Part shown: one piece after another, positions 36,111 through 46,054 of the stretch
How positions within the stretch are numbered: position 1 is the stretch's first letter
Layout: the number at the start of each line of letters is the position of its first letter
Assembly: GCF_000972785.3 (NCBI RefSeq)
Contig: NZ_CP011253.3
Span: forward strand, 2,046,001-2,110,000
Direction of reading: 5' to 3'
DNA length: 64,000 nucleotides
From: Pandoraea oxalativorans
GTDB taxonomy: Bacteria; Pseudomonadota; Gammaproteobacteria; Burkholderiales; Burkholderiaceae
Made by a program: the position numbers and the translations under genes
The notes under the pieces: generated by a model
The model's database searches: none
What the model saw: only the letters and a program-made list of their open reading frames with translations
What the model was told of the DNA's origin: nothing

Positions 36111-37469
36111 ATGGCTAACGATACCGGGCGCACCCTGATTTACGCTTCCCGAAAGCACAACGACGGTTTGCTGTCGTTTTTGGGAGAGCAAGGCTGGCAA
36201 GTCGTGCCGGCCAAGAGCGCCAGCGACGTCGGTCGCATTCTCAATCCGGGGGTCACCAGCGCAGCACTCATCGACCTGGCGAGCGGTTATAGCGACCGCG
36301 AGATGGGCGCGTTCGAGTCCTGCATGCAACCGGCCACGGTCGGCTGGGTTGCCGCGACAAATCCCGAACAACTTTCGACGACGTCGATCCGTCGCCTCAT
36401 TCGCGACTATTGCTTCGACTACGTCAACGTGCCTTGCACGAACGACCAGCTCGCGCATTCGATCGGGCATGCCTGGGGCATGGCGTCGCTGTGTGAAGTG
36501 CCGATCATCACGCCGCAAGTCGGTGGCGATCAGGAAATGGTCGGCACATGCGAAGCGATGCAGCAACTCTTTCGCACCATTCGCAAAGTGGCCAACACCG
36601 ATGCCCCGGTCTTCATCTCGGGCGAGTCGGGCACGGGCAAGGAACTGAGTGCAGTGGCGATCCACGAGCGCTCGTTGCGCGCGAAGGGGCCATTTGTTGC
36701 GATCAACTGTGGCGCGATTCCACCGCACCTGATGCAGTCCGAACTATTTGGCTACGAGCGGGGGGCCTTTACCGGCGCCAACGCGCGTAAAGTCGGGCGT
36801 GTCGAGTCCGCCAACGGCGGCACGCTGTTCCTCGACGAAATCGGCGATCTGCCCATCGAGAGTCAGGCGAGCCTGCTGCGTTTCCTGCAGCAGGGCGCGA
36901 TCGAGCGTCTGGGCGGGCACGAAGTCATTCCGGTCAATGTGCGCATCATTTCCGCGACGCACGTCGATCTCGAGACGGCCGTGAAAGAAGGGCGCTTCCG
37001 CATGGACCTGTTCCATCGTCTGTGCGTGTTGCGCGTGGATGAGCCGCCGCTGCGCGCGCGCGGGCAGGACATTGAGATTCTTGCCCATCACGTGCTCCAG
37101 CGTTTCAAAGGCGACAACCATCGCAAGATTCGCGGCTTCACGCAATGCGCGGTGCAAGCGATGTACGAATATCACTGGCCGGGCAACGTGCGCGAGTTGA
37201 TCAACCGCGTTCGCCGGGCCATCGTGATGGCCGATAGCCGCATGATTTCGGCTAAGGATCTCGACCTTCTGCCGTGGGTGCCGACGCTGGTGCGCACGCT
37301 GGAGGAAATTCGCGCGGAGGCCGAACGAACGGCCATCGAGCAAGCGTTGCTGCGCCATTGTCACCGACTGACGGATGTGGCTGCAGAGCTGGGAATCTCG
37401 CGCATTACGCTGTACCGCCTCATGTGCCGGTACGGATTGCGCGGCGACGAATCGGGCGTGCCGGCCTGA
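36111..37469 (+). CDS. VpsR-like sigma-54-dependent transcriptional activator
   Basis: A 452-aa enhancer-binding protein. Residues 1-~140 form a degenerate receiver-like domain of the VpsR type, with no clear phospho-acceptor pocket. Then comes the AAA+ domain: Walker A GESGTGKE (171-178), GAFTGA for sigma-54 contact (218-223), Walker B TLFLDEIGDLP. A C-terminal Fis-type HTH includes VAAELGISRITLYRLM. VpsR and Burkholderia BerB/FleQ relatives respond to cyclic di-GMP and drive matrix genes; by analogy it should activate the sigma-54 promoter at 38122, 0.65 kb downstream. GGGAG and TAAGG lie before the ATG. Confidence 0.85.
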   Translation: MANDTGRTLIYASRKHNDGLLSFLGEQGWQVVPAKSASDVGRILNPGVTSAALIDLASGYSDREMGAFESCMQPATVGWVAATNPEQLSTTSIRRLIRDYCFDYVNVPCTNDQLAHSIGHAWGMASLCEVPIITPQVGGDQEMVGTCEAMQQLFRTIRKVANTDAPVFISGESGTGKELSAVAIHERSLRAKGPFVAINCGAIPPHLMQSELFGYERGAFTGANARKVGRVESANGGTLFLDEIGDLPIESQASLLRFLQQGAIERLGGHEVIPVNVRIISATHVDLETAVKEGRFRMDLFHRLCVLRVDEPPLRARGQDIEILAHHVLQRFKGDNHRKIRGFTQCAVQAMYEYHWPGNVRELINRVRRAIVMADSRMISAKDLDLLPWVPTLVRTLEEIRAEAERTAIEQALLRHCHRLTDVAAELGISRITLYRLMCRYGLRGDESGVPA

Positions 37470-37489
37470 TATCTTCTGGCGAAGAGAGA

Positions 37490-37528
37490 GCGACCGTCCT
37501 GCGATGAGCAGGGCGGTCGTTTCTTTTT
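37490..37528 (+). terminator. Terminator of the sigma-54 activator gene
   Basis: GCGACCGTCCTGC, loop GATGA, GCAGGGCGGTCGT (one G-U pair), then TTCTTTTT. Confidence 0.8.
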
Positions 37529-38121
37529 GGGCTCCTGAATATCGTGCGCTCGACGCGCCGTGCAAGGGTCTGCGAGATGCGCCGACCGATGCGTCCGTAT
37601 GGCGTGAAAACATCGCGCATCAAACGCAATTTCCCCCTCCCGTTTTGCCCCGCCGTCGCATTTTGCGACTGCTGCCATCGCCAATAACGACGGGCGATTC
37701 CGGGCATTCCCATGGTGTCTCTCGACGCTGCCGTTTCATACGCTTTGCGTTACCTCAAGTTTCGAAATATCGCGTGCGAGGGTTGTCCCGAACACACATC
37801 AAAGATGAAACATCCGGGGGGAAAAACGCGGCTTCGAAAAAATCGCGCGACTGTGACGGACCTGTGTCGTTTCGTTCCGGCCCTAACAATCTGCCGCAAT
37901 TCTGTCACGCGAGACCCTTGTGAACAGGGCGTTTTCGGCATGCGTCGCTGCTCGCGCCGATATCGTTCGTAGTTCGGAATGTTTGGGTTGTGCGCCGATG
38001 GTGTGACAAGCGGTGCCTGAACGCCCCCACGTATCAATGCTGAAACGTTTTCGGCCACTCGTCCCGGCGTGCCAGCGAGACTGAAAATTTAACGTCAATG
38101 TTTTCAAACACTTAAACCGGG

Positions 38122-38137
38122 TGGCACGGAAGTCGCT
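38122..38137 (+). promoter_or_regulatory. Sigma-54 (-24/-12) promoter
   Basis: TGGCACGGAAGTCGCT has the invariant GG and GC separated by 10 bp and matches TGGCAC-N5-TTGCW except for one base (TCGC). Transcription would begin near 38148, giving a leader of under 20 nt that still contains AAGGAGG before the ATG at 38167. Confidence 0.8.
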
Positions 38138-38166
38138 TTGTTGGTCCGGGCAAGGAGGACACAGCG

Positions 38167-38709
38167 ATGCGAATTCTCACCACCGAAATGCAGTACCGCG
38201 TACGACACGGTGCAGGCGCACTGAGTGCGGCCATCGTTGTGGCGCTCGGACTGTGTGCTGCACCGGCGCAAGCGCAGGACAACATCTCCCGCTCGCCGCT
38301 CATGCAGTTGGCAATGCTCACCGGCTCGATGGTGCCGGCATCGTTTATGACGACGTCGCTGCCCACCGCCTCGATCTCCGATGCGGATGTCGCCGTCGCG
38401 GCCCCGGTCGCCGACGCTGTGGTGCCGGAGCAAGCACCCGCAGTGGCGGGCAACGACGACAGTCGGACCGTGGGCGCCTCGGGCATGCCGCTCGCTGCCG
38501 CCCGTATCGACGACGAACAACTCGGAAGCCAGCGCGGCCGCAATTTGCAGGGCGCCGCGATGGTCAAGTCGCCCGGCATGGCACTCGCCAATGGTGTGAC
38601 GTTGTGGGACGAACTGCCCGGTGGTATCACGCCGACGCCGCGTCCGCAGCAACTGTCGAACGGCGTGGGCAATGTCCAGGTGACGCGTGTGACCTACACC
38701 ACGCGGTGA
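38167..38709 (+). CDS. Exported protein with LWDE motif, first gene of the Fap-like locus
   Basis: A 180-aa protein with a clear signal peptide cleaved after AQA near residue 36. The mature part is rich in Ala, Val and Pro, with ALANGVTLWDELPGG near residue 140-155 and a C-terminal GVGNVQVTRVTY that echoes the amyloid repeat. The A-N-x-V-x-LWDE segment recurs in the protein at 44536-44961. AAGGAGG lies 8 nt before the ATG, and the sigma-54 promoter lies immediately upstream. I do not recognise a known family; a periplasmic accessory to amyloid export is inferred from position. Confidence 0.75.
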   Translation: MRILTTEMQYRVRHGAGALSAAIVVALGLCAAPAQAQDNISRSPLMQLAMLTGSMVPASFMTTSLPTASISDADVAVAAPVADAVVPEQAPAVAGNDDSRTVGASGMPLAAARIDDEQLGSQRGRNLQGAAMVKSPGMALANGVTLWDELPGGITPTPRPQQLSNGVGNVQVTRVTYTTR

Positions 38710-38714
38710 TCGAC

Positions 38715-39218
38715 ATGACCCAACTCTCATTCTCGCCCGCTGTGTTCGCCACGTTGCTCGTGGCGCCCGCACCGGCCGTACTCCCGGGTCAGGCCAAGGC
38801 CGAACCGGCGACCCCGGGCGACATCGTGATCGAGCGCAACATCGGCCCGCGGATTGCCTATCGCGGCCTGCCGCGCGAAGAAAACCCCATCGGTCTCGCC
38901 GTTCCGGCGTTCCCCGCGGGGCCGTTCAACACGGCGATGGGCGCGGTGACGGCGGTGACGGATAACGAACTGACGGCGCATGCCTCCGCAGGGCTCGTTA
39001 CGGGCGCCGTGCGCTCGGGGATGGACCCGGTGATGGGTGTGCTCGTGGGCAACGCCCGTGGCGGCAATGGCTTGAACACCAGCAACGGTGTCGGCGGCGG
39101 TTTCGCGGCGGGATCAGCCGGCGGCGGTATCGGCAGCATCGGCACGCTCGTCCCGTCGGTCATCAATTCGGCGCTGGCGCCGCTCTCGACGCTGGGTGCA
39201 GCAGGAGCCGCGAAATGA
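38715..39218 (+). CDS. Small exported protein of the Fap-like locus
   Basis: A 167-aa protein with a hydrophobic N-terminus ending at a GQAKA cleavage site but lacking the usual basic residues. The mature part has IERNIGPRIAYRGLP and a Gly/Ala/Asn-rich C-terminal half (NGVGGGFAAGSAGGG). A GTG at 38706 overlaps the previous stop (GTGA) and is an alternative, coupled start; no ribosome site is visible for either. Its stop overlaps the next ATG (ATGA). By order it could stand in for FapA, but I see no sequence proof. Confidence 0.65.
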   Translation: MTQLSFSPAVFATLLVAPAPAVLPGQAKAEPATPGDIVIERNIGPRIAYRGLPREENPIGLAVPAFPAGPFNTAMGAVTAVTDNELTAHASAGLVTGAVRSGMDPVMGVLVGNARGGNGLNTSNGVGGGFAAGSAGGGIGSIGTLVPSVINSALAPLSTLGAAGAAK

Positions 39219-39865
39219 GCGCACATCGCAACCCCAGGGGTATTTCGCACGCCCTCTCGCTGGCTGCCGCTGCGGCGCTGACGTTCGCGAGCGGCATGTC
39301 GCAGGCACAGGACATCTGGATCACGAACGGTGAGCTTCTCGGCACGCACGCCACCATCGAGAACGGCGCTGCGGTCGGTGTGGCCGGCGCGCTCGGGGTG
39401 AATCAGGCGGCGGGTGTGAATAACGTGCAGGCAAACAGCACCGTGCTTTCCAACGGCGGCGGGCTGACGGTCGGCACGTCGAGCACGAATCAACAGGCAC
39501 TCGTCACGACGACGACGGGCGCTGCCAGCGCCGCAATTCAGGGCAATGCATTTTCAGGCACCTCGGGGGTGACGCAAGTCAACCAGGCGAGCGGTGCCGG
39601 CAATCTTCAACGCAACGCGACCGTCATTGTGACTGGCGATGCGTCTGGAGTGGCGAGCGTATCGGATACGGCACTATCCGCTGCGATCTCCAAGGGTGGC
39701 CCGACTGGCCACAACAACCTCAACGATCAGTTCCGCACGGCGTCCATTTCCGGTGACGCCTTCCGCGGGGTGAGCGGTGTGTTGCAAGTGAACCAGTCGG
39801 CTGGGATAGGCAATGTAACCGCAAATGTTTTTGTGCTCCGTCCCCCGGCGGGCACATCTTTTTAA
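39215..39865 (+). CDS. fapB: FapB-like minor amyloid subunit
   Basis: A 216-aa exported protein (signal cleaved after SQA near residue 31). The mature part has three copies of a degenerate repeat: LGVNQAAGVNNVQANS, TQVNQASGAGNLQRNA and LQVNQSAGIGNVTANV, each about 60-70 residues apart. The pattern V-N-Q-x-x-G-x-x-N-x-x-x-N resembles the Fap and, more loosely, the curli repeats that stack as amyloid beta-strands. Its ATG overlaps the preceding stop. Size and place fit FapB, the nucleator in Pseudomonas. The role is inferred. Confidence 0.7.
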   Translation: MSAHRNPRGISHALSLAAAAALTFASGMSQAQDIWITNGELLGTHATIENGAAVGVAGALGVNQAAGVNNVQANSTVLSNGGGLTVGTSSTNQQALVTTTTGAASAAIQGNAFSGTSGVTQVNQASGAGNLQRNATVIVTGDASGVASVSDTALSAAISKGGPTGHNNLNDQFRTASISGDAFRGVSGVLQVNQSAGIGNVTANVFVLRPPAGTSF

Positions 39866-39895
39866 CTGGGTAACTCTCTCGTCAAGGAGATGGTC

Positions 39896-41272
39896 ATGAA
39901 AACGAAAGCAATTGCAGCGGCTGCACTGCTGGTAGCAACGGGAACCGCCATGGCTTCCCCCAATCACCAGCAATATAGCTTCTCGTTCATCGGCAACGAG
40001 ACCAACGTTCTGAACCTGGTCGGCATTTTCGGTCTGGTCGGTATTCGCGGCTGCGTCACGGTGGACAACACCGGCAACGCCGTCGTGCAAAGCAACCAGA
40101 GCGTCGACGTGCACCACGTCAACCTGAAGGGACCGCTGCTTGGCAGCTATGCCACCGGCAAGGTGACGTACGGCGTCGATTCGAAGACCACCACGGTTTC
40201 GAATCAGGGCAGCGCATACCTTCTGGCTGGCAAGACGGAAACGCACTTCGACAACACCACGTCTTGGGTGAACGCGTCGGCTAACGGCCATCTGAACACG
40301 AGTCAGGCCTTCCAGGCCGGCGCAGCCTATGTTGCCGGACAGTCGAGCTCCGGCTCGGGTGGCTTCGTTGCGGGTGGCGGGTATCAATACTCGAACATCG
40401 CCGGCGGCGGAGGCATCATCGGTGGTGGCGTGATTCCGATTCCTGGTGGCCTCGCGCTCTACGGCGGCTACCTGGCTGGCAACTTCGGTGCAGGTCAGGC
40501 CTCTGCCTGGGGCGGTTATGCCTACGGTCAGCAGTCGCAACAGGCCGCCGGGTTCCTCGCAGCGGGCTTCCTGAACACGCAGAAGAGCTTCGATGCGGCT
40601 TTCCACGCAGTCGTGAACCACGGCAGCAGCTCTGTCGAGAGCGATTCCGTCGCGGCAGCGGCATTGTGGGGCTTCACCAATACGTTCACGAAGTCGACCA
40701 CCTGGGCGAAGGGCGCGATCACGTATCACGTCAACACGGCGCAGTACCAGACGATGGGCGCAACGCTCGGCAGCGGCGCATTGGCTAACGCCAACGGCAA
40801 CGTCGGTGTGAACGTGGCAGCAGGTGCCGACAACGCTCAGGCCAACAACGTCGCGATCGCTTCGCTCAATGCTCAGCCGGTGTATGCCTCGGCTCAGGTG
40901 TTTGCGAACCAGTCGTCGAAGGGGTCGGCCAGCCTCTCGCAGTTCCTCGTCAACGCCAGCGTGGGTGACGGCGCACTTGCCAACGCCAGCGGCAACGTCG
41001 GCGTGAACGTGGCTTCGGGTATCGGCAACGTGCAGGGCAACAGCATGGCGGCGGCAGTGTCGCAGTCGAGCGGCTGGTACAAGGGCGGTGCAGCCAATGC
41101 AACGGCTCAAACCGACCAGTCGGCCAGCATGAAGGCTTCGGGTGACTTCGTCGCCAATGCCTCGCTCGGCGCCGGTGCTCTGAAGATGGCAACGGGCAAC
41201 GTGGGTGTGAACGTGGCAGCCGGTATCGGCAACGTTCAGGCCAACAGCCTGTCGATCTCGGCAATCAAGTGA
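39896..41272 (+). CDS. fapC: FapC-like major amyloid subunit
   Basis: A 458-aa exported protein (signal cleaved near MASP, residue 20). The first 280 residues include a Gly/Ala/Tyr/Gln-rich part (GGGGIIGGG, GGYLAGNFGAGQASAWGGYAY). The last 165 hold three copies of GNVGVNVAxGxxNxQxN at residues 301, 366 and 434, spaced 65-68 residues, each preceded by a LGxGALxxAxG segment. Cysteine is nearly absent. These repeats closely resemble the FapC fibre repeats I recall. AAGGAGA lies 6 nt before the ATG at 39896 (a second ATG at 39890 overlaps the ribosome site). A terminator follows. Confidence 0.8.
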   Translation: MKTKAIAAAALLVATGTAMASPNHQQYSFSFIGNETNVLNLVGIFGLVGIRGCVTVDNTGNAVVQSNQSVDVHHVNLKGPLLGSYATGKVTYGVDSKTTTVSNQGSAYLLAGKTETHFDNTTSWVNASANGHLNTSQAFQAGAAYVAGQSSSGSGGFVAGGGYQYSNIAGGGGIIGGGVIPIPGGLALYGGYLAGNFGAGQASAWGGYAYGQQSQQAAGFLAAGFLNTQKSFDAAFHAVVNHGSSSVESDSVAAAALWGFTNTFTKSTTWAKGAITYHVNTAQYQTMGATLGSGALANANGNVGVNVAAGADNAQANNVAIASLNAQPVYASAQVFANQSSKGSASLSQFLVNASVGDGALANASGNVGVNVASGIGNVQGNSMAAAVSQSSGWYKGGAANATAQTDQSASMKASGDFVANASLGAGALKMATGNVGVNVAAGIGNVQANSLSISAIK

Positions 41273-41279
41273 TGTAGCT

Positions 41280-41313
41280 AACCGGTCCGGGCGTCTTCCC
41301 GGACCGGTTTTTT
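41280..41313 (+). terminator. Intra-operon terminator after the major subunit
   Basis: AACCGGTCCGGG, loop CGTCTT, CCCGGACCGGTT, TTTTC: a perfect 12-bp GC-rich stem. It ends 13 bp before the C39 peptidase ATG. It should stop most transcripts and let the subunit be made in excess of the export genes. Confidence 0.88.
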
Positions 41314-41326
41314 CATGAGGTGTGTC

Positions 41327-42037
41327 ATGAATGATGCGCGTCGTGCCGTAGTACGGATCGCTACTGTTTGCGCTCTGGCGTGCGCAAGCGTGGCCGGGCA
41401 CGCGCAGTATGCATCGGTGAGCCTGGAGTCTTCGACCGGTGTACCGGCGGTCAAGAAGATGCGCTCGTTCAAATCGATGCACTACGTGAATCTGGTCCAG
41501 CAGGAGTACGACTTCAGTTGTGGTTCCGCAGCACTGGCAACGCTGCTGCGTTATGGCTACGGGATCAACATTCCCGAGACCGAAATGATTCAGCGAATGA
41601 TGGCGTTCTCCAACCCGGACACCGTCATCAAGAACGGCTTCTCGATGCTCGACATGAAGAAATTCGTCGAGACGTTAGGGCTCGAGGGGCGCGGCTTCAA
41701 AGTGGATGTCGGTGCGCTGTACGACCTGAAGATCCCGGTCATCGCGCTCATCGATGTCAACGGCTATCAGCACTTTGTGGTCATCAAGGCAGCGAAGGAC
41801 GGACGTGTGTTCGTGTCCGATCCGGCGCTGGGCAACCGCATTATCGAGCAGGCCGATTTTGCCAAGCAGTGGAATGGCTTGGTGCTGGCGGTCATCGGCA
41901 AGCCGTTCCTGGAGGATTCACCGCTGCTCAAAGGAAACGAATCCCTGGCTGCCAAGTTGCGCGATGGCGCGCTGGCGACCGGGACGTCACCGACCCCGAT
42001 GGTGGACTTCGGCATCATCCGGGCGGACCTGTTTTGA
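41327..42037 (+). CDS. fapD: C39-family peptidase, FapD-like
   Basis: A 236-aa exported cysteine peptidase. A signal peptide (to GHAQ, residue 26) precedes the C39 domain. The catalytic set is intact: Gln59 in QQEYDFSCGSAAL, Cys65, His149 in YQHFVVIK and Asp165 in VSDPALGN. FapD is needed for Fap export, so this enzyme probably processes a subunit or an export factor in the periplasm. The ATG at 41327 has GAGGTG upstream; an ATG at 41315 lies inside that site. Downstream of the terminator. Confidence 0.85.
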   Translation: MNDARRAVVRIATVCALACASVAGHAQYASVSLESSTGVPAVKKMRSFKSMHYVNLVQQEYDFSCGSAALATLLRYGYGINIPETEMIQRMMAFSNPDTVIKNGFSMLDMKKFVETLGLEGRGFKVDVGALYDLKIPVIALIDVNGYQHFVVIKAAKDGRVFVSDPALGNRIIEQADFAKQWNGLVLAVIGKPFLEDSPLLKGNESLAAKLRDGALATGTSPTPMVDFGIIRADLF

Positions 42038-42049
42038 GATCAGACCATC

Positions 42050-42799
42050 ATGAATCGATACGTCCCGATGCTGGCCATCCCGTTGTTTGCAAGCGCCGTG
42101 CCGGCGTTCGCGTCCAACGTGGTGCCCGAGGGCTGGACGCCTGTGAGCGATGAAGTGCTTTCGCACGCGACCGGCAAGTACGCACAACAGAACATGATCT
42201 CGGGCTTTCAGCTCGTGATGCAGTCGCAGTGGCAGATGCCCACCGGCGCGAGCCTGCTCGCCACCGGCGTGCTTGGCGTGAACCAGGGGCAGGTGCAGAC
42301 CGGCTCGTCGACGGTCGTCATCCCGGGCGTCGTGAATGCCGTCGCACCGACCACGCAAGCGGTGACCGGCACCGCCAATGCACTGGTCAACGGCGTCGCA
42401 CAGATTACGCAGGTTGCGGGCGATGCCAACAACGCGCTGAACAAGGCCATCATCCAGTACGGTCCGGGCGTGTCGCTCGCGCTGCTGGTACCCATCAGCA
42501 ACAAGTCGACGAGTAACTCCAGCACCACGGTCGGCAACCTGAGCGCGAGCGTGGCGATCAGTTCGGCCGGTATGCAGCTCTCGCTCAACACCCCGAACGG
42601 CAATCTTGGACAAAGCATTGCCGGCGGCGCAGGGGGCGCCATGAACCAGATCATGCAGGTCGTGCAGGTGGCAGGGAATGCACAGCAAGTCATGAACACC
42701 ATGCAACTGAGTCTGCAGACCAGTGCGCTGACGTCGGGCGGACTACGTCAGCTCGGCATTCAGAACGCGATGGCGAATATGGTCGCCATTCGGCGTTGA
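42050..42799 (+). CDS. FapE-like exported protein
   Basis: A 249-aa protein with a signal peptide (cleaved near AFAS, residue 22). The mature part starts VVPEGWTPVSDEVLSHATG and contains GVLGVNQGQVQTGSS and QVAGDANNALNKA, then NGNLGQSIAGGAGG: Asn/Gln/Gly-rich segments akin to the subunit repeats. It lies 12 bp after the peptidase, where fapE lies in Pseudomonas, and has similar size. It may be a minor fibre component. The name is by position; sequence alone is weak. Confidence 0.6.
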   Translation: MNRYVPMLAIPLFASAVPAFASNVVPEGWTPVSDEVLSHATGKYAQQNMISGFQLVMQSQWQMPTGASLLATGVLGVNQGQVQTGSSTVVIPGVVNAVAPTTQAVTGTANALVNGVAQITQVAGDANNALNKAIIQYGPGVSLALLVPISNKSTSNSSTTVGNLSASVAISSAGMQLSLNTPNGNLGQSIAGGAGGAMNQIMQVVQVAGNAQQVMNTMQLSLQTSALTSGGLRQLGIQNAMANMVAIRR

Positions 42800-43182
42800 T
42801 GGCATGGACGGCACTCAGTGCATCGAGTGCGCGTGAACGCATTTGAAGTGAACGGAAGTGAAAGGTAAGGCGCAGCAAGCGAAGTGACGGCGTCGTGGTC
42901 GATGCATTCGGTGCGACGCCGGCAGCAACGTCCGGCAGATCTTTGTCGGACGCCATGACAACTAGACGTGGGGCGCCGCCGCAAAACACTCGCGGCGTAC
43001 AAGAAGGTGATGTCGGCAGGGCCCGGGCAGGGTGCATCGACAATGCTCTTGACGCTTTCGATCTCTGTCTCGTGTTCCGTACGCATCACCCCGCAGTCGA
43101 GCAGCAAGGACAACCGTTGTTGCAACACGTGTTTGTTGGATTGCGCGCGGACACCCGTCCGCTTTTTCACCCGGGGGGGATC
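42800..43182 (+). other. Intergenic region before the fapF-like gene
   Basis: 383 bp with no credible gene. GAAGTGAACGGAAGTGAA at 42846-42863 is a short direct repeat, and CGCCGC...GCGGCG (42974-42996) can form a hairpin. TTGACG at 43052 is a possible -35 but no good -10 follows. It lacks a clear sigma-54 site. Confidence 0.45.
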
Positions 43183-44514
43183 ATGAACACTCACCGCTTT
43201 TTTCCCGTTGCCGCTATTCCGTTGGGGGTACTGCTTTTCACGCTATCGGCCCAGGCTCAGGAGCATACGGACCCATCGCCGGATAACCGTCTCCAGATGT
43301 TGATGGACATGGTTGACCGGCAGCAGCGGGAAATTTCTTCTCTGAAGCAGCGCCTCACGGATATCGAGATGGCGCAACGCGGTCGCGGTCTGACCGCGTG
43401 GGATACCGCGCAGATCGCGCAAGTCTCGCCGGGCGATGGCTCGGCCGCCGGCTCTGCGGGCACGCCCGGTGGCGGCGCTGCCGGGGCTGCCGGACCTACC
43501 TCGGCCACGCCTATCGGCGAGACGCAGCAGATGCAGAAGAGCGAGACCGAATCGCAACGCACGCCTGCGGAAGAAGCGGTCGTTCAGGCGCAGCACGCGC
43601 CGTTGTTCGACCGCAAGCTCACCATCGATGCCGGTATCAGCTACAGCTACTACGACCGGCGCCAACTGGTGCTGAGCGGCTTTCTCGCCCTCGACGCCAT
43701 CTTCCTCGGTCAGTTGAACCTCGGCCAGACCAAGGCCAACGTGTGGACGTTCGACGTCAACACGCGTTACGGCGTGACCGACCGGTTGAGCGTGGCGTTC
43801 GATGTGCCGTACCTGTATCGCAACTCGGACTTCATCTCCGGCGGGGTGGGCGGTGCGGCGTCGTCTATCAGCGATATCAGCAAGAACTCGGCGAATATCG
43901 GCGACGTGAACGCGTCGTTGTACTACCAGCTCATGAAGGAAAACGCCAACTGGCCCGATATCGTGGCGTCGTTGCGCGTGACCGCACCGACCGGCACGTC
44001 GCCGTTCGGCATCAAGCTGGGTACGCCCGATCCGACGAACAACAACCTCACGACGCCGTCGCGGTTACCCACGGGTAACGGCATCTGGGCGATCACGGCT
44101 GGCCTGTCGTTCCTGCGCACCTACGACCCGATCGTGTTGTTCGCGAACGTGGCGTACACGTACAACGTGGCGAAGACGTTCGACGACATCTCGACGATCG
44201 AAGGCGTCGTGCAGCCTGCCAAGGTCAAGCTTGGCGACATCGTGCAGGTCGGGGCGGGGATGGCATTGGCGCTCAATGACAAGACGGCGCTGTCGATCTC
44301 GTATTCGACGGCAATCTCGCGTGCAACGAAGACGGCTTCTCCGGGCGGCCCGTGGACCACGGTGGCAGGCAGTACGACCAATGCGGCGTCGCTCAACTTC
44401 GGCATCAACTACGCCATCAACAAGCATTGGACGGTCAACGGTTACGTCAACGCTGGCATGTCGCCGGACGCACCGAACTACGTGATCGGGGTGCGTTTCC
44501 CGTACACGTTCTGA
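43183..44514 (+). CDS. fapF: FapF-like outer-membrane amyloid exporter
   Basis: A 443-aa outer-membrane protein. A signal peptide (cleaved after SAQA, residue 25) precedes a coiled coil (about residues 35-65, MLMDMVDRQQREISSLKQRL), a Gly/Ala/Ser linker, and then a beta-barrel rich in alternating aromatic residues (for example ISYSYYDRRQLVLSGF) ending in the terminal aromatic PYTF. This is the layout of FapF: a coiled coil gating a secretion barrel. It also resembles phenol-degradation MetA-type barrels. GGGGGGA lies before the ATG. It is convergent with the next gene. Confidence 0.75.
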   Translation: MNTHRFFPVAAIPLGVLLFTLSAQAQEHTDPSPDNRLQMLMDMVDRQQREISSLKQRLTDIEMAQRGRGLTAWDTAQIAQVSPGDGSAAGSAGTPGGGAAGAAGPTSATPIGETQQMQKSETESQRTPAEEAVVQAQHAPLFDRKLTIDAGISYSYYDRRQLVLSGFLALDAIFLGQLNLGQTKANVWTFDVNTRYGVTDRLSVAFDVPYLYRNSDFISGGVGGAASSISDISKNSANIGDVNASLYYQLMKENANWPDIVASLRVTAPTGTSPFGIKLGTPDPTNNNLTTPSRLPTGNGIWAITAGLSFLRTYDPIVLFANVAYTYNVAKTFDDISTIEGVVQPAKVKLGDIVQVGAGMALALNDKTALSISYSTAISRATKTASPGGPWTTVAGSTTNAASLNFGINYAINKHWTVNGYVNAGMSPDAPNYVIGVRFPYTF

Positions 44515-44535
44515 GGCTTGAGCGGTTAGGAGAAA

Positions 44536-44961
44536 TCAGCGAGCGGCGGCAGACCCCATGCGGCCGCTTGCGTTGACCTTGAGGTTCGTGGCCATCATGC
44601 CGGTCGTCTGCGGCATCGAGGAAGCGGCAATGGTCGTACGCGGCTGCGCCGTGGCAGGCAGCGACGCCTGAGTCGGTTTGGGTGAAGGGGCGGGTGGAAT
44701 CACTTCGTCCCAGAGACGAACGTTGTTGGCGACGGTCGCCGTCGAATTGACGGGTGCAATGCTGGTCGGACCAGCGTGACCGATGCTGGTGACGAGACTT
44801 CGCGATACGTTGGCGGCGTGGGTGCTGGCGAGCAAGGCGTCGCTCACTGTCGCCGGGATGCCGCCCACGCCGATGACGTCGGCCTGTGCGGTACTCGCAA
44901 TGCACGCGGCGGCAAGACAAAACACCGCACGGCGCGTTGTGCTGACGGAAATCTTGAACAT
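44536..44961 (-). CDS. Exported LWDE-motif protein, paralogue of the first locus gene
   Basis: A 141-aa protein with a signal peptide cleaved after AQA (about residue 27). It carries ANNVRLWDEVIPPAPSPKP, matching ANGVTLWDELPGG...PTPRP in the 38167 gene product; the rest is Ser/Thr/Ala-rich. The C-terminus is not shared. It lies on the opposite strand, 21 bp from the fapF-like stop, and is divergent from the LuxR-type regulator. Function unknown; the shared motif suggests a common binding partner. Confidence 0.7.
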   Translation of the reverse strand: MFKISVSTTRRAVFCLAAACIASTAQADVIGVGGIPATVSDALLASTHAANVSRSLVTSIGHAGPTSIAPVNSTATVANNVRLWDEVIPPAPSPKPTQASLPATAQPRTTIAASSMPQTTGMMATNLKVNASGRMGSAAAR

Positions 44962-45328
44962 GGCGTGCCCCCCGGCCTCCGCTGACTGTCCTCTCAGACT
45001 TTTTGTATTTTATTGCGTCGGATGGGAAAAGAAAGGGAAAAAAGTAATAGCGGAATTTCCGAAATTTGAGTAAATAATTTACGCAAATTGCGGAATGTCG
45101 CGTTGAGGCAACAGGGATAAGGCTCCGCGCGAAACCGATTCGCCGCCATGCGGGCTAAGCGCATAAACTGCCTTGAAAGCAAGATGACGCCTTATGTGTA
45201 AACCGCGACAGAGGCTGGAGGATTCCTTCGGTTTTTGTCCTGTTAAAAACAACGCTAAAGGCGCGTACGTTCGAAAAAGAAAGCGGGGCGGCGGCGTGGG
45301 GATGCCGACCGGAATGACAGGGGAAATC
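44962..45328. other. AT-rich divergent regulatory region
   Basis: 367 bp between the divergent LWDE gene and the LuxR gene. It is markedly AT-rich from about 44998 to 45090 and contains the 27-bp palindrome. Both promoters must lie here; no strong -35/-10 pair was fixed. Confidence 0.6.
45063..45089. promoter_or_regulatory. 27-bp palindromic operator candidate
   Basis: AATTTGAGTAAAT-A-ATTTACGCAAATT: 12 of 13 base pairs are symmetrical around position 45076. It is probably the site for a dimeric regulator, perhaps the neighbouring LuxR-type protein. Confidence 0.65.
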
Positions 45329-46054
45329 ATGCGTGTGCTGGTCCTTGGAGAGGCTGCCGCCTGGCTGAGCGGCCTCCAGATCGCGTTGCAAACCGAAGCG
45401 AGCGCGACGCCACCGGTCTTGCGTCACGTCGATAGCGTGGCGACGCAGGACTGGGTATGGCTGCGCGAGTTGCCTTCGCGTCGTGCGCTCGTACTCGATG
45501 AGTCCGTGGCGCGTACACCCGCGCTCGACACCTTGTGCTCGGCGGCCGCCGAGTGTGTTCCGCCCGTGCCGGTCATCGTCGTCGGCGATGCGGGTTTTCC
45601 CGATGAGATCATCCGCTGGCTACAAGCGGGCGTCACGGCGTGTCTGCCGTGGCCGAACTCGGTGGCGCGTATTCGTTCGGTGTTCGACCTGGCGTTCTCC
45701 GGCGGACGCTTTGTGCCGGAAGAAGCGCTCTCGGCGCTGCTGGTGCTGTGGCGCCAGGAGGCTTTGGGCGAGGCGCTGCCGCTTTCCCGTCTGCCGGTGT
45801 TTCCGTTGGGCGGGGACAAGGCGACGCAACTGGCCGAGTCTGCATTGCTGGGCATCTCCCAGCGGCAATACGAAATTCTGGCGTTGCTCTCCCGAGGACT
45901 GTCCATCAAGACCATTTGCCAGCAGCTCGTGATCTCGGAAGGCACGGCGAAGACGCACGTCTCGGCGCTTTACCGACGTCTGGGGGCGCGCAATCGCGGC
46001 GAGGCCATTTATATTGCAGCGCAACGTGGCGCGCGTCATCTGTTCGAGACGTGA
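45329..46054 (+). CDS. LuxR/CsgD-like transcriptional regulator
   Basis: A 241-aa DNA-binding protein. The N-terminal half is a degenerate receiver: MRVLVLGEAA in place of the acidic pair, one Asp at residue 57 in LVLDES, and no conserved Lys. The C-terminal HTH (ISQRQYEILALLSRGLS, then VISEGTAKTHVSALYRRL) is of the LuxR/NarL family. CsgD, the curli activator, has the same plan. AGGGGA lies before the ATG at 45329; the open frame upstream is AT-rich and unlikely to be coding. It probably controls the amyloid locus. Confidence 0.8.
   Translation: MRVLVLGEAAAWLSGLQIALQTEASATPPVLRHVDSVATQDWVWLRELPSRRALVLDESVARTPALDTLCSAAAECVPPVPVIVVGDAGFPDEIIRWLQAGVTACLPWPNSVARIRSVFDLAFSGGRFVPEEALSALLVLWRQEALGEALPLSRLPVFPLGGDKATQLAESALLGISQRQYEILALLSRGLSIKTICQQLVISEGTAKTHVSALYRRLGARNRGEAIYIAAQRGARHLFET

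Follow-up and report, generated by a model that had tools for sequence, protein, structure and literature searches.

A fap operon of Pandoraea oxalativorans headed by a small-protein gene that shares a leader-like segment with FapE

The Fap functional amyloid system is described from Pseudomonas, where it is encoded by the six genes fapABCDEF. According to the Pseudomonas literature, FapA is a chaperone and FapD a periplasmic C39 peptidase, and the major subunit FapC and the minor subunits FapB and FapE would be exported via FapF, forming surface fibres. Reports of Fap in Burkholderia date back to 2013 (PMC3792158), and Pandoraea is listed among Fap carriers by a 2018 review (PMC6173800). The role of FapD has been an open point of the pathway: its catalytic Cys is required for secretion of FapC, and its substrate is left undetermined in the accessible portions of PMC5557850 and PMC6173800. 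The same portions report no N-terminal peptides of FapE in mass spectrometry and describe the Fap proteins as without canonical C39 sequences, and GG or GA motifs of FapE or FapF are discussed as possible FapD sites (accessible portions of PMC5557850 and PMC5135000). Here, a window of 64,000 nucleotides of Pandoraea oxalativorans (assembly GCF_000972785.3, contig NZ_CP011253.3, positions 2,046,001 to 2,110,000) was analysed, and all coordinates refer to this whole stretch. Its locus 36111-46054 belongs to Fap and includes a small exported protein, called the LWDE protein after its TLWDE motif. This protein shares a short segment with FapE, the segment is lost from most LWDE proteins where FapD is missing, and the promoter anatomy is conserved between genera. 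From these sequences it is probable that FapD recognises the segment of FapE and of the LWDE protein, and that sigma-54 together with a VpsR-type activator switches the operon on.

As seen in Table 1, the interval 38167-44514 reads as a complete fap operon, a known kind of system, with the order LWDE-fapA-fapB-fapC-fapD-fapE-fapF on a single strand. The preliminary description, made from the letters of the window, had proposed a divergent Fap system containing two repeat-bearing exported proteins, a C39 peptidase, another exported protein rich in Asn and Gln, a barrel with an N-terminal coiled coil, two LWDE proteins and its own regulators. All of these components were found again: FapB carries three repeats of the type V-N-Q-x-x-G-x-x-N-x-x-x-N, FapC carries three of the type G-N-V-G-V-N in its C-terminal half, FapD has the conserved catalytic residues, FapE is the Asn/Gln-rich protein, the stretch ahead of the FapF barrel is coiled-coil-like, and there are two regulators, the activator and a LuxR-type protein. 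FapA had been left unnamed and was identified by its NCBIfam match. Family matches, gene order and predicted fold all support the Fap reading. In the profile comparison that the description had called for, the best NCBIfam Fap match of each of the six products is its own family, in the correct order and far above chance (E 4e-7 to 1e-111); FapB is also an internal homologue of FapC. The word divergent is fair as well, since all six products score below the curated NCBIfam cut-offs. For FapF, none of the 369 genomes of the class sample passes its cut-off and 17 of these match at E<=1e-50, so the cut-offs may be tuned to Pseudomonas. Gene content and gene order are the grounds for assigning the locus to Fap, and it is not counted as an NCBIfam equivalog.

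The same six-gene order, a three-repeat FapC, a C39 FapD and a FapF barrel matching a solved structure are common to Pseudomonas and this locus. Compared with the six-gene operon of Pseudomonas, whose loci were not scanned for LWDE genes, the locus has two additional LWDE genes, one ahead of fapA and one behind fapF, a linked VpsR-type activator, a long N-terminal half of FapC, and a FapC without the C-terminal C-X-X-C. The putative pilus system Fil is also similar, as FapD matches the C39 peptidase FilB (4e-37) and FapF matches the barrel FilC (2e-12); however, the Fap models match these two products far better (1e-59 and 1e-111), and no Fil match was found for FapB, FapC or FapE. The Fap operon itself is ordinary and of an already known kind, and the interest lies in its extra parts.

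Table 1. Features of the fap locus, with coordinates in the window
Feature	Coordinates	Strand	Evidence
VpsR-type sigma-54 enhancer-binding activator, fap-linked	36111..37469	+	Pfam Sigma54_activat 8e-69, VpsR domain 7e-22, HTH_8
Putative activator site, palindrome GTATCA-N4-TGAAAC then GTTTT	38031..38051	+	conserved at same position in other genera
Putative sigma-54 promoter (-24/-12), TGGCACG-N4-TCGCT	38122..38137	+	91 bp start-to-start from palindrome
LWDE protein, 180 residues: signal peptide, variable linker, C39-type leader segment, LWDE motif	38167..38709	+	
Leader segment IDDEQLGSQRGR of LWDE protein, residues 114-125	38506..38541	+	D115, L119, G124 invariant 22/22; hhalign to FapE
VTLWDE motif, residues 144-149 of LWDE protein	38596..38613	+	TLWDE invariant 22/22
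FapA (chaperone-like)	38715..39218	+	NCBIfam NF058617, E 4e-7
FapB, minor fibre subunit/nucleator, three repeats	39215..39865	+	NF058557, 2e-23
FapC, major fibre subunit, three repeats at about 288-459	39890..41272	+	NF058558, 3e-18; PDB 9nqd/9u4u by sequence, 9u4u by fold
FapD, periplasmic C39 peptidase	41315..42037	+	NF058616, 1e-59
FapE, minor exported subunit	42050..42799	+	NF058559, 6e-13
Leader segment VSDEVLSHATGK of FapE, residues 32-43, shortly after signal peptide	42143..42178	+	D34, G42, K43 invariant 18/18; L37 nearly
FapF, outer-membrane exporter	43183..44514	+	NF058560, 1e-111; PDB 5o65 FapF, 7e-79
Second LWDE protein, 141 residues, convergent with fapF	44536..44961	-	hhalign to LWDE family E 7e-9, 9e-10
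LuxR-type regulator	45194..46054	+	Pfam GerE, 1e-12

The best local profile alignment between the LWDE family and FapE pairs L-D-D-x-x-L-x-x-Q-R-G with V-x-D-x-V-L-x-x-Q-T-G-K (E 7.7e-5 and 3.7e-5), and none of 150 column-shuffled FapE profiles reaches this score. Profiles of FapA, FapB, FapC, FapD, FapF and the activator gave E values no better than 0.002 with the LWDE profile; a weak match between FapE and FapB lies elsewhere, in Asn/Gln-rich stretches (E 0.0008). The pattern [LIVMAF]x4[LM]x4G[KR] lies within the first 140 residues of 110 of 112 FapE proteins, the other two (L067, P0170) being truncated; a narrower window gave 108 of 112, one of them placed on a spurious stretch. A FapE of Pseudomonas, P0191, carries IQDDELSQLRGR. 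The stricter pattern D..[LM].{4}G[GKRS], with Asp at -10, is found in FapE (65/70) and LWDE proteins (34/44), in FapA (28/60) and FapF (10/71), and hardly at all in FapB (1/68), FapC (2/71), FapD (0/70) and the activator (2/65), with shuffled controls of 0.9 to 4.1 (FapB 0.9, FapC 3.5, FapA 1.5, FapF 4.1). FapA was considered as a third carrier, for example with VSDTDLTNAHGS; frequent as the segment is there by pattern, profile comparison with FapE or LWDE proteins was unsupportive, and this is not claimed. A search for FapE on plasmids gave no match.

It is very improbable that the first small protein of an ordinary fap operon is merely a fast-evolving by-product, resembling FapE by chance. 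The columns of the LWDE protein do mostly vary, with a mean column identity of 30%, as such a by-product would. However, 12 columns are invariant among 22 aligned sequences (M1, D115, L119, G124, T145-E149, P156, P160 and Q171), and the codons of the LWDE motif include all six Leu codons in each of two sets, with Asp and Glu codons varying too, so that conservation acts at the protein level. The shuffled-profile result above and the distribution of the segment between genomes with and without FapD, given below, also disfavour chance.

No Pfam or NCBIfam model matches the LWDE family, and no PDB relative was found by sequence. Together with its fap-linked leader, the LWDE protein appears from its sequence to be an undescribed small protein, and the founder of a new small-protein family tied to this circuit; the open literature on Fap, taken without supplements, most subscription papers and preprints, contains no LWDE protein, leader segment or linked activator in its accessible portions. 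The LWDE gene adjoins fapA in 27 of the 36 Burkholderiaceae fap loci outside Pandoraea and is missing from nine (L062, L069-L073, L075, L081, L082). Of the 17 class-wide loci, 15 had sequence to scan ahead of the fap genes, in some cases only a short stretch, and in three of these (L093, L094, L095) an LWDE gene precedes the fap genes directly behind a sigma-54-like site; the LWDE protein of L094 is identical to a protein named Sulfuriflexus (P0262). For the best 120 of 567 homologues, the organism names noted were all Paraburkholderia, Burkholderia or Trinickia, and nearly all entries were annotated as hypothetical protein. A search of the genome with the family profile also recovered the second LWDE protein of the locus (E 0.0015). 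Many fap operons would have, in the LWDE gene, a seventh component that has been overlooked.

The proposal that FapD recognises the segment was made because positions -12, -7 and -2 match the C39 pattern. The published pattern consists of Leu-12, Glu-8, Leu-7, Val-4 and GG, GA or GS (accessible portions of PMC6363468). A hydrophobic residue at -12, Leu or Met at -7 and Gly at -2 are present in 110 of 112 FapE and 44 of 44 LWDE proteins, similar to the double-glycine leaders of C39 peptidases such as 6mpz (hydrophobic -12, Leu -7, Gly -2; PMC6363468). Unlike those leaders, the segment here would be served by a periplasmic peptidase, its carriers would be Sec-exported, and Lys or Arg is common at -1. 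Therefore, the segment resembles, rather than is, a canonical double-glycine leader. In FapD itself, Q63, C69, H153 and D169, which we take to be the C39 catalytic positions, are invariant in 31 of 31 aligned proteins, and a signal peptide was seen by eye. The 22 matches of its predicted structure at E<=0.001 are peptidase structures of the PCAT1, ComA and LahT type, and the leader-bound peptidase 6mpz is matched. FapD would read [hydrophobic]-x-[D/E]-x-x-[L/M]-x4-G-[K/R/G], shortly after the signal peptide in FapE and mid-chain in the LWDE protein; with a cut at or near the segment, FapE would become competent for export and the C-terminal part of the LWDE protein would be set free. A C39-like segment in nearly every FapE examined, lost by LWDE proteins with the operon, makes the question of the FapD substrate testable by short peptides.

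Many Burkholderiaceae genomes without a fap-type FapD, defined by a match at E below 1e-80, keep the promoter and the LWDE gene, and also the activator where sequence sufficed. A fap-type FapD was found in none of the 51 genomes of this FapD-free set and in nine of nine controls; a distant C39 relative (1e-33 to 1e-36) is present in six of the 51. Ahead of the LWDE motif, the leader pattern is present in 44 of 44 proteins when the genome carries FapD and in 3 of 49 when it does not (Fisher 2e-23, which is not corrected for the tree, the FapD-free genomes being related and the 93 proteins not independent events). Two of the 51 loci, L148 and L168, gave no LWDE protein and were dropped; L131 was not placed among the FapD-free loci, since a fap operon is present at another site of its genome; L057, which carries an LWDE gene, was omitted from the 44, and L093-L095 also stand outside them. 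Among the three FapD-free matches, that of L137 lies in the signal-peptide region and that of L158 looks incidental, and both were counted. On an activator tree of 43 rows, the FapD label needs six changes, of which four are forced by well-supported branches. In the FapD-free genomes, internal stops interrupt several LWDE genes.

In the 11 examined FapD-free loci of about 15 kb, the only other fap matches are fapB-like. Such matches stand behind the LWDE gene, with the rest of the operon missing, in L125, L126, L127 and L130, and weakly in L124 and L131; remnants of this kind are as expected of deleted fap loci. The fap operon is lost as a whole, and co-loss does not single out FapD: the loss links the segment with Fap, and it is the resemblance to C39 sites that points to FapD in particular. 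Alternatively, FapF could use the segment as a docking or export signal, or a chaperone could bind it, and it would have disappeared with the operon once its Fap partner was gone, an explanation that would suit the passage of FapE through FapF described in the literature. It is rather unlikely, since FapB and FapC, which are also exported through FapF, carry the stricter pattern no more often than their shuffled controls, since -12, -7 and -2 are the very positions read by C39 peptidases, and since the P. oxalativorans genome holds one FapD-like C39 match at E<=0.001.

Recognition by FapD remains the preferred explanation, and several further observations weigh against it. Gly, Ala or Ser is not the rule at -1, where FapE has Lys in 82 and Arg in 26 of 108 proteins (the search pattern itself demands Lys or Arg, and one lies on the spurious stretch) and LWDE proteins have Arg in 27, Gly in 14, Thr in 2 and Ser in 1 of 44; position -4 is often Gln or Ala. 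FapD may therefore cut at another place, or the segment may serve for binding alone. FapF has a weak profile match at the same LWDE stretch (E 0.002), so FapE is perhaps not the sole carrier among the fap products. The FapA segment is without profile support, and published Pseudomonas peptides show no FapA processing. The leader-like segment of the second Pandoraea LWDE protein has Ala at -2 in 17 of 18 cases, the eighteenth being unmatched by the pattern. The segment is kept without FapD in L133, and it is lost in L131, where a Fap-positive genome has its second copy of the LWDE gene. Finally, the FapD model is modest, with a mean predicted local distance difference test score (pLDDT) of 66.

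Second, distant clusters of FapF (about 30% identity) and C39 peptidase (35-43%) occur in L086-L089, the last on contig 2 of genome G028, and one of these clusters accompanies fap in the genome of a Pandoraea. In L086, L087 and L089, a protein of about 400-454 residues that looks exported lies near the cluster. The FapE-type segment was not found in these four clusters, so it is not general to every pair of FapF and C39 peptidase.

The persistence of LWDE genes without Fap was followed in one genus, g10, in which 21 genomes have the palindrome pattern and no hit to the LWDE profile; 20 were fetched (G222 was left out). All 20 palindrome-anchored loci encode an LWDE protein just downstream, of 64-66 residues in 16, and no FapF at E<=1e-20 was found in any g10 genome. 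In a crude hydropathy test, 19 of 20 of these proteins showed no hydrophobic stretch as strong as that of a signal peptide, compared with 5 of 44 from FapD carriers and 8 of 50 from other FapD-free genomes. The LWDE motif thus has a task for which Fap, and perhaps export, is not needed. It follows that the LWDE protein has a further role, and that release by FapD, contrary to the simplest form of our proposal, cannot be its sole one.

It is quite possible, though not what we favour, that the LWDE protein is an independent product of the VpsR-type activator and sigma-54 module rather than a Fap component, heading the fap operon since both are matrix genes and having acquired the leader as a secondary adaptation. 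The survival of the gene with its palindrome and sigma-54 promoter in genomes without a fap-type FapD, and the g10 loci in particular, agree with this. On the other hand, the LWDE gene heads the operon in Fap-positive loci and stands ahead of the fap genes again in the distant loci L093-L095, and the N-terminus still has a hydrophobic stretch in 42 of the 50 other FapD-free proteins, for which export may therefore remain relevant. A bolder suggestion, offered tentatively, is that the LWDE protein is the core output of the activator circuit in Burkholderiaceae, kept after the loss of fap and in one genus even without a signal peptide, and that in Fap carriers a C39-type leader has wired it to FapD as a FapD-released matrix peptide or a regulator of fibre building.

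The regulatory part of the locus is similar to BerB of Burkholderia cenocepacia and VpsR of Vibrio cholerae, as the activator has a VpsR domain, an AAA+ sigma-54 domain and a Fis-type helix-turn-helix. BerB binds cyclic di-GMP and drives a matrix regulator from the sigma-54 site TGGCACGTAAATCGCT, to which the sigma-54 site here is close, and VpsR itself works without RpoN (accessible portions of PMC5552954). In contrast to both, the activator here is fap-linked and has a dedicated palindrome; by analogy with its family, it may bind cyclic di-GMP and be controlled by it. The best paralogue of the activator in its own genome scores 249 bits, compared with 1029 for itself. Relatives that align over at least 90% of the length with 52-67% identity stand beside fap in 31 of the 36 other Burkholderiaceae loci. 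In 25 of the 36 (L050-L061, L063-L068, L076-L080, L083, L084), the operon is flanked by a pair of such activators, the upstream one divergent and the other lying downstream of fapF, and at least one is present in 14 of the 17 class-wide loci. A VpsR domain was detected in four of five further activators checked, L102 being without it at E 1e-5. Less favourable to a general role of the activator, none was found within the fetched stretch in four of the 36 and three of the 17 loci.

At up to two mismatches the palindrome has one match in the window, where 0.01 are expected, and the 6.5 Mb genome holds one exact match and two others at two mismatches. The sigma-54 site alone does not exceed chance in the window (3.9 matches expected and 5 found when one mismatch is allowed), and the putative promoter was accepted because of its spacing and conservation. 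Both elements were found by regular expression in 21 of 27 LWDE loci outside Pandoraea, 91 bp apart in 20 and 92 in one, and the spacing is 91 bp in the window and in all 18 named Pandoraea loci. A scan of 70 upstream regions gave the sigma-54 pattern in 57 and the palindrome in 45. The joint pattern occurs in 191 of 396 genomes of the family, at most twice per genome, and a reversed control pattern in none. The activator probably binds the palindrome, from which, 91 bp upstream, it would switch the operon on with sigma-54 RNA polymerase; the fixed pair of palindrome and sigma-54 site names a likely Fap switch in Burkholderiaceae. In L135 (position 1884 on contig 3 of genome G117, which has no fap-type FapD), a second palindrome with sigma-54 site precedes, by eye, a 722-residue exported-looking protein and a GlmS-like frame; this site is a possible further target of the activator.

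Surface fibres would be built of FapC. Across its three repeats, the G-N-x-G-x-N ... N-x-Q-x-N columns are invariant in 34 FapC proteins, and the repeats align by sequence with the two FapC structures 9nqd and 9u4u. The AlphaFold model has a mean pLDDT of 50 and is confident at the repeats (about 281-459, mostly 70-90) and in a short stretch (61-80), most of the N-terminal half being below 50 (residues 1-57 and 87-277). The sole PDB match of the model at E<=0.001 is 9u4u, FapC of Pseudomonas sp. UK4, reached through the repeat region. FapF residues 143-443 match the FapF crystal structures. The long N-terminal half that had been described as unlike short FapC proteins is indeed present; however, a long FapC is usual in LWDE loci (368-481 residues), and a published survey gives 377+/-143 (PMC3792158). 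Lengths are 259-286 residues in eight of nine Burkholderiaceae loci without an LWDE gene. A long FapC as partner of the LWDE protein was rejected, as L070 (474 residues, no LWDE gene) and class-wide loci break the rule. Residue 55 is the only Cys of this FapC, and the C-terminal C-X-X-C motif that is a feature of Pseudomonas-type FapC (PMC5135000) is absent from it.

The FapF search returned 18 named loci, every one from Pandoraea with 93-100% identity, and the 10 genes of the locus have matches in the same order in all 18. Of the 32 Pandoraea genomes, 31 have FapF, one of them only a fragment of it, and the genome in which it is missing has 1.2 Mb. The LuxR-type regulator stands beside fap only in Pandoraea, with no match in the 36 other Burkholderiaceae fap loci. 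Upstream of the activator gene lies recR, named by eye. An in-frame GTG three codons 5' of the fapA ATG (38706-38714) overlaps the stop of the LWDE gene, so that fapA may start at 38706 by coupling.

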